This document shows, piece after piece, positions 21,443 through 63,751 of a DNA stretch of 64,000 nt (its first letter is position 1; each line of letters begins with the position of its first letter). The notes beneath the pieces are model-generated. The model had not been told where the DNA came from and did not search any database. It saw nothing but the letters and a program-made list of their open reading frames with translations. The position numbers and the translations under genes were made by a program. The DNA lies in NCBI RefSeq assembly GCF_021233415.1, contig NZ_CP089466.1, positions 2,418,001 through 2,482,000 of the forward strand. The letters are read 5' to 3'. The DNA comes from Halobacterium litoreum. Its GTDB lineage: Archaea > Halobacteriota > Halobacteria > Halobacteriales > Halobacteriaceae.

Positions 21443-22987
21443 CTACGTCCGTGCGCGCGAGGAGTCCAACACGATGTCGAGGTCGTCGAGCACCTCGCGG
21501 GCCTCCTCGCGTTTCTCCTGGTGGTCTTCGAGGAACTCTTCCATCAGTTCGGCGGCCTGCTCCTTGCACCCGCCACAGAGGCGTTCGCCGTTCACGCACT
21601 CCGAGTACACTTCTTCGGCGACCGCGTCGTCGTCGCCCGCGAGCAGGTATGCGTACAGTTCGTACACCGGGCAGTCGTCGGCTTCGCCGCCGAGTTCGCG
21701 CTGTTCCTCGGCGGTGTCGCGGCCGCCCGTCGTCGCGGCCTTGACCTTGTCGTAGCCCTCCTCGGGGTCGTCGAGGAGGCTGATGTGACTCGCGGGAATC
21801 GAGGAGGACATCTTCCCGCCCGTCAGCCCGGTCATGAAGCGGTGGTAAATCGAGGACGGCGGCACGAAGCCGTAGCCGCCGTGGTCGACTTCGACGCCGA
21901 GCGCGAGGTCCTCGGCCGTCTCGTGGCTCATGTCGAAGGCGTCGACGTGCCCCTCGAAGACGCGCTTCTCGCCGTCGATGGCGTCGATGAGCGCGTCGAA
22001 GGCCTCGTCGGTCGCCTGCCGGTCGAAGAAGCGGACGCGTGGTCGGAGCGGTTCCATGCCGGCGTTCTCCAACTTCTGGACGACGCTGCCGACCGTCTCG
22101 TCGTCGAAGCCGGCGGTCGCGTCGTCGCTCTGAAGCCAGTCGGCGGCCTCCGTGCACCGCGGCGTCTCGGGGTCGTCGGCGTACGCGTCGCGGGCGTCGT
22201 AGGCGGCGCGAACGACCGGGCGCTCGTCGTCGTCGAACGCGACGCTCGCGTACGCCTCGGTGACTTTGAAGAAGCGCGTGCGTTCCGCGAGGTCGCGGGC
22301 GAGGCGGACGTGGGGGTCCTGGTCGGGACCGACCGGGATGACCGTCGGCTTGGGTTCGTCCAGTTGGGGGTAGAGGATGTCCGCCATCTGGGTGACGACG
22401 CTCTGCATGTGGGAGACGTCCGTCTCGCCGCCGAAGCCGTAGATGGCCTCGAACTCCGAGAAGTTCGCCTCGGCGCCGAGTTCGAACGCCAAGTCCTGGA
22501 GTTCGCGGTTCTCGGACTGCCGGTAGAGTTCGCCGTCCTCGGGGTCGAAGCCGAGGGCGAGCAGGCTGAGGAGGTAGTCCTCGGCGTGGTCGTCGATTTC
22601 GCTCCACGTCAGGCCGCGGGCCGCGTGGGCTTCGAGGTCGGCGATGAGCGCGTACGCGTCCCCGCCCTGCTGTTGGTGCCAGATGATTTCGTCGAACACC
22701 ATCTTGTGCCCGATGTGGGGGTCGCCCGTCGGCATGAACCCGGAGAGGGCAGCGAACGGGTCGTCGTTGCGCATCGCGTCGGCGACCCGGCGGTAGTCGC
22801 GGTGGCCGAAGATGATGGCTCGCCGCATCAGGTAGTGGGGGGTCGGCACCTCGTCTAAGACGTCCTCGAACGCTTCGATGCCGAACTCCTCGAAGAGCTT
22901 GCGGTAGTCGTCGATGGTCGAGGAGCCCCACGGGTCGAGTGCGACGTCGTCGGCGCCTGCCGTCTGGGTGGTGTCGTTGTCGGTCAT
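21443..22987 (-). CDS. trpS: Tryptophan--tRNA ligase 1
   Basis: A 514-residue class I synthetase charging tRNA-Trp. The ATP-binding signature is PTGDPHIGH (86-94, after a typical archaeal N-terminal extension), the adenylate site VIPVGPDQDPHVRLARD is at 217-232, and KMSSS is at 392-396. The distance from the DQDPH block to KMSSS is about 170 residues against about 40 in the second TrpRS of this window, so this protein carries a roughly 130-residue insertion. The start overlaps the endA stop by 4 bases (ATGA), forming the end of an operon with endA and a NucS-N/zinc-ribbon gene. Confidence 0.95.
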   Translation of the reverse strand: MTDNDTTQTAGADDVALDPWGSSTIDDYRKLFEEFGIEAFEDVLDEVPTPHYLMRRAIIFGHRDYRRVADAMRNDDPFAALSGFMPTGDPHIGHKMVFDEIIWHQQQGGDAYALIADLEAHAARGLTWSEIDDHAEDYLLSLLALGFDPEDGELYRQSENRELQDLAFELGAEANFSEFEAIYGFGGETDVSHMQSVVTQMADILYPQLDEPKPTVIPVGPDQDPHVRLARDLAERTRFFKVTEAYASVAFDDDERPVVRAAYDARDAYADDPETPRCTEAADWLQSDDATAGFDDETVGSVVQKLENAGMEPLRPRVRFFDRQATDEAFDALIDAIDGEKRVFEGHVDAFDMSHETAEDLALGVEVDHGGYGFVPPSSIYHRFMTGLTGGKMSSSIPASHISLLDDPEEGYDKVKAATTGGRDTAEEQRELGGEADDCPVYELYAYLLAGDDDAVAEEVYSECVNGERLCGGCKEQAAELMEEFLEDHQEKREEAREVLDDLDIVLDSSRART

Positions 22988-59699: not shown

Positions 59700-60632
59700 G
59701 TGACCGACGAGTTCGGTCTCGCCGAGGAGCGGGAGGGCGCGCCGGGCGACGAGTTCGAGGAAATCGACGTCTCGGACACGGAGGCCGACCGCATCGCGCG
59801 CCGGCAGGACCGCGAGTTCGCGGAGTTCCGGAAGCGCCTGAAGGACACCGAGCAGTTCAAACTGGACGACGGCGCGTTCGACGACGCGACGTACGCGGCC
59901 GTCTACAAACTCGTACAGGACGAGCACGTGGGCGCGATGGGCGGCCCGATTTCGACGGGGAAGGAGGCGAACGTCTACGAGGCCCACGACGCGGAGGGCG
60001 GGGACGTGGCGGTGAAGGTGTACCGCATCAACGCGTCGAACTTCAAGCAGATGCGGGAGTACCTCGAAGGAGACCCGCGCTTCGAGGGGATTCGCGGCGA
60101 CAAGAAGGCGGTCGTGTTGTCGTGGACGCGCAAGGAGTTCTCGAACCTCCAGCGCGCGGCGGCGGCGGGCGTTCGCGTCCCGCACCCCATCGCGGTCCAG
60201 CGGAACGTGCTCGTGATGGAACTCATCGGGCAGGAGGGGGACGCCGCGCCGACGCTCAGCGACGTGAACGTGGAGAACCCGGAGACCGCCTACGAGGTGG
60301 TGCGGGAGTACGTGCGTCGCCTGTACGCCGCGGGCCTCGTACACGGCGACCTCTCGGAGTACAACATCGTCGTCTACGACGGCGAACTCGTCGTCATCGA
60401 CGTGGGGCAGGCGGTGACGATTCACCACCCGAACAGCGACGACCTGCTGCGACGGGACTGCCGGAACGTCGCGAACTTCTTCGCGCGACAGGGCGCCGAC
60501 GCCGACCCGGACGAACTGTACGACTACGTCACGTCGAACGCCGACCCCCACACCGAGGGCGACGCGCAACGCGAGAACGGCGACGGCGAGGATGACGGGA
60601 CCGACGACGCAGACGCAGACCCCGGAGCCTGA
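59700..60632 (+). CDS. rio1: RIO1 family serine/threonine kinase
   Basis: A 310-residue atypical kinase/ATPase acting in late 30S maturation. The ATP loop is STGKEANVYEA, the ATP-site Lys is in VAVKVYR, the catalytic loop is LVHGDLSEYNIVV, the metal-binding loop is VIDVGQAV, and the flexible loop follows NASNFKQMREYL. The C-terminus has an acidic tail of about 35 residues. It starts at a GTG 13 bases after eIF1A. In many archaea a KH-domain (Krr1/Dim2-like) gene follows directly; here 3.2 kb with trpS2 and two regulators intervene. Confidence 0.94.
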   Translation: MTDEFGLAEEREGAPGDEFEEIDVSDTEADRIARRQDREFAEFRKRLKDTEQFKLDDGAFDDATYAAVYKLVQDEHVGAMGGPISTGKEANVYEAHDAEGGDVAVKVYRINASNFKQMREYLEGDPRFEGIRGDKKAVVLSWTRKEFSNLQRAAAAGVRVPHPIAVQRNVLVMELIGQEGDAAPTLSDVNVENPETAYEVVREYVRRLYAAGLVHGDLSEYNIVVYDGELVVIDVGQAVTIHHPNSDDLLRRDCRNVANFFARQGADADPDELYDYVTSNADPHTEGDAQRENGDGEDDGTDDADADPGA

Positions 60633-60672
60633 CGGCGATACGCATTTCTCGGTCGGCGTCGTCTCGGCGACC

Positions 60673-61539
60673 ATGAGCGACGAGACGTCGGTGACTGCGG
60701 AGCGACAGTCGCCGGAGGCGGCGTTCGGACTGCTGTCGAGTGACCTCCGCGTGGCGATACTTCGGGCGCTCGGCGACGCCGACGGCGCGCTCTCGTTCTC
60801 GGAACTGCGGGAGCGCGTCGAGGTGGTGGATTCGGGGAAGTTCAACTACCACCTCGGGAAACTCGCCGGTCACTTCGTCACGCAGACCGGGGGCGGCTAC
60901 GAGTTGTCGCTGGCGGGCCGGCAGGTGTACGGCGCGATTCTCTCCGGCAGGTACACGGCGGACGCCACCGTCGACCCGTTCGCGTTCGACGGGCCGTGTC
61001 CGCTCTGCGGGCACGCGGACCTCGTGGCGGAGTACGTCGACGAGCGCGCACGGCTCTACTGCCCGGAGTGTGAGGTGTGGCGAAACGAGTTCTCGTTCCC
61101 GCCGGCGAGCCTCGACCAGTTCGACCGCGAGGCGCTGCCGGCAGCGTTCGACCGGTGGATGCGCGCGACGGTGGCGAGGATTCTGCAGGGGTTCTGTGCG
61201 AACTGCGGCGGGCGCGTCGACGGGCGCCTCGAACCCGACGACGGCGACTCGCCGATGTCGCTGTCCGCGGTGTTCGACTGCGAACGCTGTGGGGACGAAC
61301 TGCAGTCCGCGCCGATGCTCCCCGTCATCTTCCACCCCGTGGCAATCGGGTTCTTCGAGGCCCACGGCGTGGACGTGTTCGCGGACCCGTCGTGGCGCTT
61401 TTTCGACGCCGGGGACGACGTCGACGTGACCGAGACCGAGGACGGCGGAGCGCGCGTCCGGTTGGTGGTCGACGGCGACGAACTGACGGCGACCGTCGAG
61501 GCGGACGTCTCCGTCACCGACGTCGCAGTCGCCGACTGA
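60673..61539 (+). CDS. Winged-helix regulator with zinc ribbons, paralogue 2
   Basis: A 288-residue paralogue of the protein at 56811. The wHTH is at about 15-95 (LSSDLRVAILRALGD, VDSGKFNYHLGKLAGHF). Four Cys pairs follow (PCPLCGHA, YCPECEV, FCANCGGR, DCERCGDE). It begins 40 bases after rio1 and ends 41 bases before the trpS2 leader ORF. A role in regulating trpS2 is possible from position only. Confidence 0.85.
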   Translation: MSDETSVTAERQSPEAAFGLLSSDLRVAILRALGDADGALSFSELRERVEVVDSGKFNYHLGKLAGHFVTQTGGGYELSLAGRQVYGAILSGRYTADATVDPFAFDGPCPLCGHADLVAEYVDERARLYCPECEVWRNEFSFPPASLDQFDREALPAAFDRWMRATVARILQGFCANCGGRVDGRLEPDDGDSPMSLSAVFDCERCGDELQSAPMLPVIFHPVAIGFFEAHGVDVFADPSWRFFDAGDDVDVTETEDGGARVRLVVDGDELTATVEADVSVTDVAVAD

Positions 61540-61544
61540 GCACC

Positions 61545-61734
61545 GAAACCGTTTTTGCTGACGTTCCCCGATTCGGGAGTATGCAGTCCGCTCTCCGCGG
61601 TTGGCGCTGGCGCGCTCGGAGAGCGGACAGTCTCGCCGCCGCGGCCTGACGGGCGTCACCCGCTCAGGTCGGGCGCGTTGCTCCCTCCGTTCTTCTCGCG
61701 TATCGCTTCCGACCAGCCACACACATCCACAGCC
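61545..61734 (+). promoter_or_regulatory. trpS2 leader: promoter, Trp-codon leader ORF and hairpins
   Basis: A CGTTTTTGC element (61550-61558) is followed 27 bases later by a leader ORF at 61581-61649. Stem 1 is perfect: GTCCGCTCTCCG (61586-61597) with CGGAGAGCGGAC (61617-61628). Its 19-nt loop holds both Trp codons. Stem 2 pairs CCTGACGGG (61645-61653) with CCCG-C-TCAGG (61659-61668) and contains the leader stop codon; pyrimidine-rich sequence (CTCCCTCCGTTCTTCTC) follows. A ribosome waiting for Trp-tRNA would hold stem 1 open. The pairing is seen; the control mechanism is inferred. Confidence 0.65.
61581..61649 (+). CDS. Putative trpS2 leader peptide, 22 aa, with W-R-W
   Basis: A 22-codon ORF, MQSALRGWRWRARR then ADSLAAAA and stop. 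Trp codons TGG are at residues 8 and 10, although Trp is rare and the ORF is tiny. The ATG is 27 bases from the centre of TTTTT, so the mRNA would be leaderless, and the stop is 85 bases before trpS2. It resembles bacterial trpL-type leaders by layout. No homology test possible at this length. Confidence 0.6.
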   Translation: MQSALRGWRWRARRADSLAAAA

Positions 61735-62868
61735 ATGACAGACGACGACGTGACGCCGTACGCCGTCGCGGGCGACGTAGATTACGAGAAACTGCTCGCT
61801 CGCTTCGGCGCGGACGAACTGACCGACGACCAACGACGGCGCTTCCCCGACCACCCGCTGGTGCGTCGTGGCCTGTTTTACGCGGGCCGCGGCGTGAGTG
61901 ACTTCCTCGACGCCGAGGAGCAGTCCATCGTGACCGGCATCGGGCCGTCGGGGCCGATGCACCTCGGGCACGCGATGGTGTTCTACTTCGCGAAGCGCCT
62001 GCAGGACGAACTCGGCGCGCGGGTGTACGTCCCGCTGTCGGACGACGAGAAGTACTGGTTCAAGGACCAGACCGCCGCGGAGACGGGCGAGTACCTCCGG
62101 GAGAACCTGCGAGACTTGCTCGCCGTCGGCTTCGACCCCGAACTGACGCGGTTCGTCGTGGACACGAGAGACGCCGACGTGGTGTACCCGCTGGCGACGG
62201 CGTTCGGGAAGGAGGTGACCCACTCGACGCTGGAGAACGTCTACGGGACGCCGGAGAACGTCGGGCAGGCGTTCTACCCGGCGGTCCAGACGGCCCACCT
62301 CCTGCTCCCACAACTGGTACACGGCGAGCACGAGACGCTGGTGCCAATCGCGGTGGACCAGGACCCGCACGTCCGGGTGAGTCGGGACGTGGCAGCGAAG
62401 GCGCGGTATCCGGTCGGGAAGCCGGGCGCGCTGTTGATGCAGTTCCTGCCGTCGCTGGGCGGGCCGGGGAAGATGAGCAGTTCCGAGGGCGTCTCGATTC
62501 GGCTGACCGACGACGCCGACACCGTCCGGGAGAAGATTCGCAAGCACGCGTTCACGGGCGGACAGTCGAGCGTCGAAGAACACCGCGAGCAGGGCGGCGA
62601 CCCCGAGGTGGACGTGCCGTTCCAGTACCTGTCGGCGTTCTTCGAGTCGGACGACGACGAACTCGCGCGCATCGAGGCCGAGTACCGGGCGGGCGACCTG
62701 CTGTCGGGCGAACTCAAGGAAATTGCCGCCGACCGCATCGTGGAGTTCCTCGACGGGCACCAGTCCCGCCGGGACGCGCTCGGACCGGTCGAGGACGAAC
62801 TCCCGAAGTTCCGGCTGACCGAGGCCGAACGGGAGCGCGCCGTCGACGCAGTCGGGTTCGGCTACTGA
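61735..62868 (+). CDS. trpS: Tryptophan--tRNA ligase 2
   Basis: A 377-residue class I TrpRS of compact archaeal/eukaryotic type. The signature is PSGPMHLGHAMVF (HLGH at 76-79), the adenylate-site block is AVDQDPHVRVSRD, and KMSSS is at 246-250 (PGKMSSSEGVSIRL). It lacks the roughly 130-residue insertion of TrpRS 1 at 21443 and so may be the standard enzyme, with the other diverged. The Trp-codon leader just upstream suggests that this copy is the regulated one. Confidence 0.94.
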   Translation: MTDDDVTPYAVAGDVDYEKLLARFGADELTDDQRRRFPDHPLVRRGLFYAGRGVSDFLDAEEQSIVTGIGPSGPMHLGHAMVFYFAKRLQDELGARVYVPLSDDEKYWFKDQTAAETGEYLRENLRDLLAVGFDPELTRFVVDTRDADVVYPLATAFGKEVTHSTLENVYGTPENVGQAFYPAVQTAHLLLPQLVHGEHETLVPIAVDQDPHVRVSRDVAAKARYPVGKPGALLMQFLPSLGGPGKMSSSEGVSIRLTDDADTVREKIRKHAFTGGQSSVEEHREQGGDPEVDVPFQYLSAFFESDDDELARIEAEYRAGDLLSGELKEIAADRIVEFLDGHQSRRDALGPVEDELPKFRLTEAERERAVDAVGFGY

Positions 62869-62935: not shown

Positions 62936-63751
62936 ATGAGCGACGACGCAGAGGACGCGTTCGCCGCCGTCGCCGACGAACTCCGCGTCCGTATCCTCCG
63001 CGAACTCTGGGACGCCGACGACCCCCTCGCCTTCTCCGAGTTGCGCGACCGAGTCGACGTGGCGGACTCCGGGCGCTTCAACTACCACCTCGGGGAGCTA
63101 CGCGGTCGGTTCGTGGAGCAGCGAGACGAGGGGTACGCGCTCCGGTTCGCGGGCCGCGAACTCGTCGGCGCGCTGTACTCCGGCGTGTTCACGGAAGAGG
63201 CGTCGGTCGGCCCGCAGGCGGTGGAGGGCGACTGTCCGCTCTGCGGGAGCGACCTCGAAGCCGTCTACGAGGACGAACAGGCGCGTGTCACGTGTACGAG
63301 CGACGACTGCGGCGTCCACGTCGTCTCGGTGGGCATCCCGCCGGCGTTCGTGGACGGCCGCGAGGACGACCTCGCGACGGCCATCGACGGCTACGTGCGC
63401 ACGATGGCGCGCCAGTTCACCGCGGGGTTCTGTTCGTCGTGTCGCGGCCGGACGACCGGCCGCCTCGAACGCGACGGCGAGCACGGGCCGCGAGCCGTCT
63501 ACGAGTGCGAGCGCTGTGGCAACCGCTTCCACGGGTTCGTGACGACGGCGGTCCTCGACCACACCGAGGTGCTGTCGTTCTACCGCGACCACGGCCGCGA
63601 CGCACGCGACGCCCCGATCTGGCAGATGGGGTGGACGACCGACGCGGAGATGGACGGCGACGAGGCGGTTGTCGCGGTCGCCCTCGACGGCGACGAACTG
63701 GAACTCAAACTCGACGAGTCGCTTTCCGTGGTCGGCGCGGAGCGCACGTGA
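62936..63751 (+). CDS. Winged-helix regulator with zinc ribbons, paralogue 3
   Basis: A 271-residue paralogue of the proteins at 56811 and 60673. wHTH at about 5-80 (VADELRVRILRELWD, VADSGRFNYHLGELRGRF), then Cys pairs DCPLCGSD, TCTSDDCGV (spacing CX4-type instead of CxxC), FCSSCRGR and ECERCGNR. It follows trpS2 by 67 bases and precedes the KH gene by 56 bases. Confidence 0.85.
   Translation: MSDDAEDAFAAVADELRVRILRELWDADDPLAFSELRDRVDVADSGRFNYHLGELRGRFVEQRDEGYALRFAGRELVGALYSGVFTEEASVGPQAVEGDCPLCGSDLEAVYEDEQARVTCTSDDCGVHVVSVGIPPAFVDGREDDLATAIDGYVRTMARQFTAGFCSSCRGRTTGRLERDGEHGPRAVYECERCGNRFHGFVTTAVLDHTEVLSFYRDHGRDARDAPIWQMGWTTDAEMDGDEAVVAVALDGDELELKLDESLSVVGAERT

Follow-up and report, generated by a model that had tools for sequence, protein, structure and literature searches.

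A Trp-codon leader conserved ahead of trpS2 in haloarchaea: a candidate ribosome-mediated attenuator

Introduction

How might an archaeon adjust the expression of a second tryptophanyl-tRNA synthetase (TrpRS) to its supply of charged tRNA-Trp? The question is raised by a locus of Halobacterium litoreum in which a short open reading frame (ORF) bearing two closely spaced Trp codons precedes trpS2. In the E. coli trp leader, tandem Trp codons lie in a short 5′ ORF, and a stalled ribosome chooses between mutually exclusive hairpins. The H. litoreum locus lies in a 64,000-nucleotide (nt) stretch of contig NZ_CP089466.1, hereafter the window, from a genome of ~2.7 Mb, and a sequence-only reading of the window had suggested that ribosome stalling at Trp controls the folding of a stem around these codons and the expression of trpS2. 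Attenuators have been predicted before trp operons, trpS/trpS2, and leuS in Streptomyces and Corynebacterium (PMC1262725), and a mechanism of transcription attenuation or antitermination is not known in archaea (Blombach et al., 2021; PMC8448881). The comparative and folding analyses described here lead us to regard it as likely that the leader is a ribosome-mediated attenuator, which senses charged tRNA-Trp and acts by termination. A search of the open-access literature found no earlier report of this haloarchaeal leader, and priority is uncertain.

Architecture of the leader

The elements of the locus, all on the forward (+) strand of the window, are as follows.

61544..61557, +: promoter, with a BRE-like CGAAAC and a T-rich, TATA-like CGTTTTTG, 24–37 nt 5′ of the leader ATG
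61581..61649, +: leader-peptide ORF MQSALRGWRWRARRADSLAAAA, 22 codons, putatively leaderless; ATG at 61581, stop TGA at 61647–61649
61586..61597, +: segment 1, the 5′ arm of stem 1, GTCCGCTCTCCG; exact 12-bp pairing with segment 2
61602..61610, +: putative regulatory codons TGG-CGC-TGG (W-R-W); Trp codons at 61602–61604 and 61608–61610
61617..61628, +: segment 2, the 3′ arm of stem 1, CGGAGAGCGGAC; predicted alternative partner, segment 3
61629..61682, +: hairpin 2, long and covarying; foot AGT/GCT (61629–61631 with 61680–61682), apical loop CGTCA (61654–61658)
61680..61686, +: near-invariant GCTCMCT motif, 3′ foot of hairpin 2
61686..61697, +: segment 3, T/C-rich tract TCCGTTCTTCTC, of which 61686–61695 is predicted to pair with segment 2 in a long rod; candidate termination site
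61735..62868, +: trpS2, second (accessory) tryptophanyl-tRNA synthetase by profile matches; presumed regulated gene

When the sequence was read again, every coordinate given earlier for the ORF with its W-R-W upstream of trpS2 proved correct, and the exact 12-bp stem with both Trp codons in its loop, as well as the pyrimidine-rich sequence after the second hairpin, lay where they had been placed. The second hairpin itself, described at 61645–61668, is present and contains the stop codon, but it is the tip of the ~53-nt hairpin 2. The gene that follows, starting 85 nt 3′ of the leader ORF, had been called a Trp-tRNA synthetase, and its product scores above the cut-off of two TrpRS profiles (NF008927, 528.7 bits; TIGR00233, 203.4 bits). 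The Trp codons of the ORF thus fit the specificity of the gene behind it, a correspondence that holds for UGG ahead of trpS2, trpS1, and trpD and for Ser codons ahead of an accessory serS.

Across 100 aligned leaders, base composition upstream of the leader start is of promoter type, A-rich at −36 to −34 and T-rich at −30 to −26. Because this BRE/TATA-like signal occupies −36 to −26 from the leader start, the transcript is expected to be leaderless. The earlier description of the ORF as leaderless, with its start codon at the transcript 5′ end, is thus supported at the level of sequence, and the arrangement appears to be that of an attenuator, with a short ORF near the 5′ end of the transcript and upstream of its presumed target gene. 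On either side of trpS2, at 60592–61539 and 62936–63751 of the window, paralogous HTH proteins (DUF7347/DUF7351) are encoded, and the product of a neighboring gene weakly matches the HVO_A0261 N-terminal domain.

Conservation across the order

The upstream regions of trpS2 orthologues were read in a sample of 59 genomes. The leader unit is found ahead of trpS2 in all 25 genomes of this sample that have an orthologue, and in each of the 25 leaders a short ORF places W-R-W or a variant of it inside the loop of stem 1 (W-Q-W-R-W, W-S-W-P-W, and one ending W-R-W-H-stop among them). An alignment of 24 leaders (A1) has stem 1 as its sole consensus fold. A covariance model built from the relatives (R1) matches at E ≤ 0.01 in 181 of 392 genomes of the order, spread over 57 of 95 genera, a few of the weakest matches (L429, L431, L433–L435) being due to chance; the window leader scores E = 2.8e-29 in its own genome, although by construction it is a member of the model. 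In a phylum-wide sample, matches to the unit were confined to the same order. The 100 aligned leaders precede trpS2 (88), trpS1-type genes (11), or serS (1); they are related sequences, and counts made over them are not counts of independent events.

Whether the Trp codons and the stem are conserved within the genus had been set beforehand as a point on which the proposal would stand or fall, and both are kept far beyond the genus. The earlier judgment that two Trp codons at this place are unlikely by chance is likewise borne out by the covariance matches in 181/392 genomes, by the reading-frame bias of TGG described next, and by compensatory change in stem 1.

Evidence that the leader ORF is translated

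All 100 aligned leaders have a start codon (89 ATG, 11 GTG) 4–10 nt 5′ of the modelled arm 1. Every one of them also carries an in-frame TGG within the loop of stem 1, and 94 have two to four Trp codons; one leader (L077) is a Ser version, whose single TGG is near arm 2. Over the 100 leaders, 222 occurrences of TGG are in frame and 11 are not. The count picked starts that favor the Trp frame, a bias that is small because 87 of the 100 starts share the same offset. This frame preference holds despite variable spacing, since the first UGG lies 15–57 nt after the start, and the UGGs are separated by a codon that is itself variable (CGC, CGT, CAG, CAC, TGC, CCG, and others). Beyond the UGG codons the frame is unconserved. 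Relative to the end of arm 2, stop codons range from 20 nt upstream to 38 nt downstream; they fall at the loop of hairpin 2 in 64 of 100 leaders and before arm 2 in five, and the shortest leader peptides have 13 residues.

Two folds predicted to compete for one segment

Stem 1 is strongly constrained. Its positions are paired in 98.9% of alignment cells, and cells with a double change number 88 against a shuffled mean of 25.6, in an alignment that was fitted to the model; controls in which the arms were slid are 38–61% paired. Hairpin 2 is a spacer of near-constant length: 61 of 100 leaders have 53 nt between arm 2 and the T/C tract, and all but three have 51–56 nt. Its cognate halves fold at −29.3 kcal/mol, compared to −23.9 kcal/mol when halves are swapped between species (0/5000), its AGU/GCU foot is paired in all 84 leaders with a spacing of 53 or 54, and individual folds give an apical loop of the form C-N-U-M-A. 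As read from the aligned sequences, then, the ORF, the in-frame conservation of UGG, stem 1, hairpin 2, and the position of the promoter are features of the leader. The GCTCMCT motif (61680–61686 in the window, and its equivalents in relatives) is almost invariant; pairing accounts for part of this conservation, which goes beyond what the pairing model needs.

The switch layout proposed earlier was right in its Trp codons and its stem, both conserved, but missed a plausible competing pairing that reaches past hairpin 2. Once arm 1 is removed, segment 2 pairs with segment 3 in 98% of leaders. With segment 3 shuffled the pairing still forms in 85%, and species-specific covariation between segments 2 and 3 was sought and not found (swap test, 809/5000). 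The specificity of the pairing rests on conservation and register, because the swap test is non-significant and a shuffled tract pairs so often; a competing 2:3 pairing in the leaders is plausible on these models. A helix enclosing segment 3 is weakly suggested (swap test, 266/5000).

Folding was repeated with bases blocked by a ribosome, whose edges were assumed to lie 13 nt ahead of the A-site codon and, at the stop codon, 16 nt behind; the folding parameters are those of 1 M NaCl and 37 °C, not of molar KCl. With the ribosome on the first UGG, the rod is predicted in 98 of 100 leaders, and with it on the last UGG in 89. Stem 1 is predicted in 79 of 100 leaders when the ribosome occupies the stop codon and in 83 without a ribosome. 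The leader may thus alternate between two mutually exclusive folds that share segment 2, of which stem 1 covaries and the rod is predicted under blocking, its 2:3 part being without covariation. In the window leader the rod is predicted at −68.0 and the stem-1 state at −67.6 kcal/mol, a gap of 0.4 kcal/mol, near-equal energies as expected of a bistable switch. The competing pairing and the switch between the two states are predictions of these folding models.

The T/C tract and the output step

Segment 3 is nearly purine-free over about six positions. In 98 of 100 leaders, 51–84 nt separate it from the start of the synthetase gene. It contains TT together with C in 95% of leaders, compared to 5–15% in three neighboring windows, although one window within the downstream gene reaches 42%. 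Intergenic termination in Haloferax volcanii has as its motif a T stretch with TC (PMC7237163), which segment 3 resembles; unlike those intergenic sites, it belongs to a 5′ leader, where a competing fold is predicted to mask it. The tract is often weaker than a T5 terminator, with TTT in 46% of leaders. On this comparison, segment 3 is probably a termination site for RNA polymerase. An intrinsic terminator of the bacterial type, in which a U run immediately follows a GC-rich hairpin, was considered and rejected, the T/C tract lying inside the 3′ strand of the rod.

A proposed mechanism and its rivals

In the mechanism that we favor, transcription would begin at or beside the leader ATG, so that the first ribosome would load right at the mRNA 5′ end. 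With Trp-tRNA plentiful, this ribosome would clear the UGG codons and halt in or near hairpin 2; behind it stem 1 (segments 1:2) would form, segment 3 would be left unpaired, and RNA polymerase would most likely terminate. With Trp-tRNA scarce, the ribosome would stall on UGG and cover segment 1, and the freed segment 2 would pair with segment 3, stacking on hairpin 2 to make one long rod. The rod would hide the T/C tract, and transcription would continue into trpS2. Since it is stalling that makes the rod, the rod should be the ON state and the exposed tract the OFF state of a gene needed at low Trp-tRNA. It is in this sense that we infer ribosome stalling, termination at segment 3, and induction of trpS2.

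Could the RNA itself, without translation of the ORF, be the sensor? A T-box-like structure might bind tRNA-Trp directly, with the UGG in a hairpin loop pairing with the CCA anticodon or the tRNA 3′ end. Against this stand the start codon 4–10 nt before arm 1 in all leaders, the 222:11 frame preference of UGG despite variable spacing, and the existence of Ser-codon versions of the same scaffold. Nor did Rfam give a T-box match at E ≤ 5; the leader matches no known RNA family, and two sub-threshold matches to other families both lie inside trpS2. We consider a T-box-like RNA very improbable. Even less credible is a conserved small-protein gene that contains Trp by coincidence. It would explain the ORF, its promoter, and a handful of conserved residues, but the frame is lost after the UGG codons, stops vary from −20 to +38 nt around arm 2, some peptides have a mere 13 residues, and what is conserved is the RNA folds and the UGG codons rather than the peptide.

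Harder to set aside are readings that keep the stalled ribosome and change either what it does or what it answers to. The same UGG-stall sensor might act on trpS2 translation initiation or mRNA stability instead of termination. The closeness of segment 3 to the synthetase start (51–84 nt in 98/100 leaders), a near-invariant GCTCMCT that termination leaves unexplained, and the many tracts that are just moderately T-rich would all suit such an output. However, the trpS2 start region is outside both folds, no Shine–Dalgarno sequence that could be masked is seen by eye, and the tract, nearly purine-free over about six positions with TT and C in 95%, looks like haloarchaeal termination sites; an output of this kind is possible, and we think it rather unlikely. 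Alternatively, the trigger might be a translation inhibitor, for instance one acting on TrpRS, and trpS2 an inducible resistant synthetase controlled by the same stalling mechanism. Congruent with a resistance role, trpS2 encodes a second TrpRS where trpS1 is present too, an attenuator has been predicted before Streptomyces trpS2 (PMC1262725), and the scaffold also precedes an accessory serS, GNAT genes (in four genomes), a methyltransferase, and an ABC transporter, classes often linked to resistance. Yet no inhibitor is known here, and the placement of the unit before trpS1 in 21 genomes without trpS2, and before trpD in one, fits Trp supply, which leaves resistance a tentative reading of limited probability. 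A stall sensor of charged tRNA-Trp that acts by termination thus remains the reading that we prefer.

Relation to known systems

An attenuator of this kind would share with the E. coli trp operon leader its tandem Trp codons in a short 5′ ORF, its mutually exclusive hairpins chosen (here by prediction) through stalling, and its downstream Trp gene. Unlike the E. coli leader, it is haloarchaeal and its start codon lies, putatively, at the transcript 5′ end without a Shine–Dalgarno sequence; its UGG codons sit in the loop of the 1:2 stem; the unit comprises three segments and a spacer hairpin of near-constant length; and in place of a separate 3:4 hairpin and U run, the candidate terminator is a T/C tract that doubles as the 3′ strand of the alternative stem. 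The Rfam trp leader has no match at the window locus. The haloarchaeal leader may therefore work like the enterobacterial one, by analogy, without being a member of that family by homology.

The nearest published parallel that we found is the attenuator predicted before trpS2 of Streptomyces avermitilis (PMC1262725). The actinobacterial attenuators share a Trp-codon leader peptide and, in the S. avermitilis case, a position before a second TrpRS gene (PMC1262725), but they are bacterial, with GC-rich terminator hairpins and poly-U, and no homology of sequence or fold to the haloarchaeal leader was seen. With T-box riboswitches the leader would have in common the control of aminoacyl-tRNA synthetase genes by tRNA charging, as proposed here; unlike them, it conserves a translated ORF.

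Scaffold variants and downstream genes

The genes found behind the scaffold suggest a broader reading, toward which we lean with some reserve: a modular haloarchaeal ribosome-stall sensor, a form of transcription attenuation new to Archaea, built on one conserved RNA scaffold that accepts different codons. Trp codons would serve trpS2, trpS1, and trpD, Ser codons the accessory serS, and other stall signals the GNAT, methyltransferase, and ABC transporter genes. If true, such a sensor would imply close coupling of transcription and translation on leaderless mRNAs. A codon-specific leader switch conserved in 57 genera offers a ready test of such coupling, as well as of regulated archaeal termination, and its hosts can be cultured and manipulated; if confirmed, the attenuation principle operates in archaea too.

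Ser-codon versions of the scaffold (MESTSRSRSQSSFW; MESTSRSRSQSSFWEVDS, MVSTSHSRSRPHRWEVDS) precede an accessory serS in two genomes (L077 in G193 and L356 in G173), and a third copy, L069 in G193, precedes a broken serS. The scaffold is also found before orthologous GNAT acetyltransferases in four genomes (L071, L076, L416, L427), where no repeated codon is obvious; among the best 30 loci of GNAT orthologues, these four have it. Two copies in one genome precede a SAM methyltransferase (L067 and L073 in G189), and one elsewhere an ABC transporter (L075 in G279). A search with model R2 of 80 genomes that lack the Trp unit gave no clear codon-swapped version, its best new match (L391) not looking like a leader by sequence. 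A pattern scan for UGG..UGG with GGAYAGT returned mostly unrelated bacterial records, and its one haloarchaeal match (L263) fails the model.

The Trp-codon unit itself tracks the synthetase genes. In all 21 genomes where it precedes trpS1, no trpS2 was found, and in genomes with both genes (G013, G041, G217, and that of the window) it precedes trpS2; two genomes (G012 and G028) have trpS1 alone, without the unit. The window trpS1 (ATG at 22987, minus strand) lies close behind another gene and has no Trp leader upstream, and none was seen by eye upstream of trpC in the same genome. One Trp-codon unit, L158 (G039:C166; MLSAFRSWSWRWYRSGKRTVS), lies ~150 nt 5′ of trpD, with trpF overlapping downstream. 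The sequence-only reading had suggested comparing the leaders of trpS and trp biosynthesis genes across haloarchaea for tandem Trp codons and covarying stems; the trpS2 and trpS1 leaders have them, but 30 other trpD upstream regions (L323–L352) have no leader of the trpS2 type, which makes G039 the sole trpD case. Nearly all of these 30 trpD promoters share a different element, TGTACA...TTGTACA...GTACATTGG, a candidate operator of a Trp regulator.
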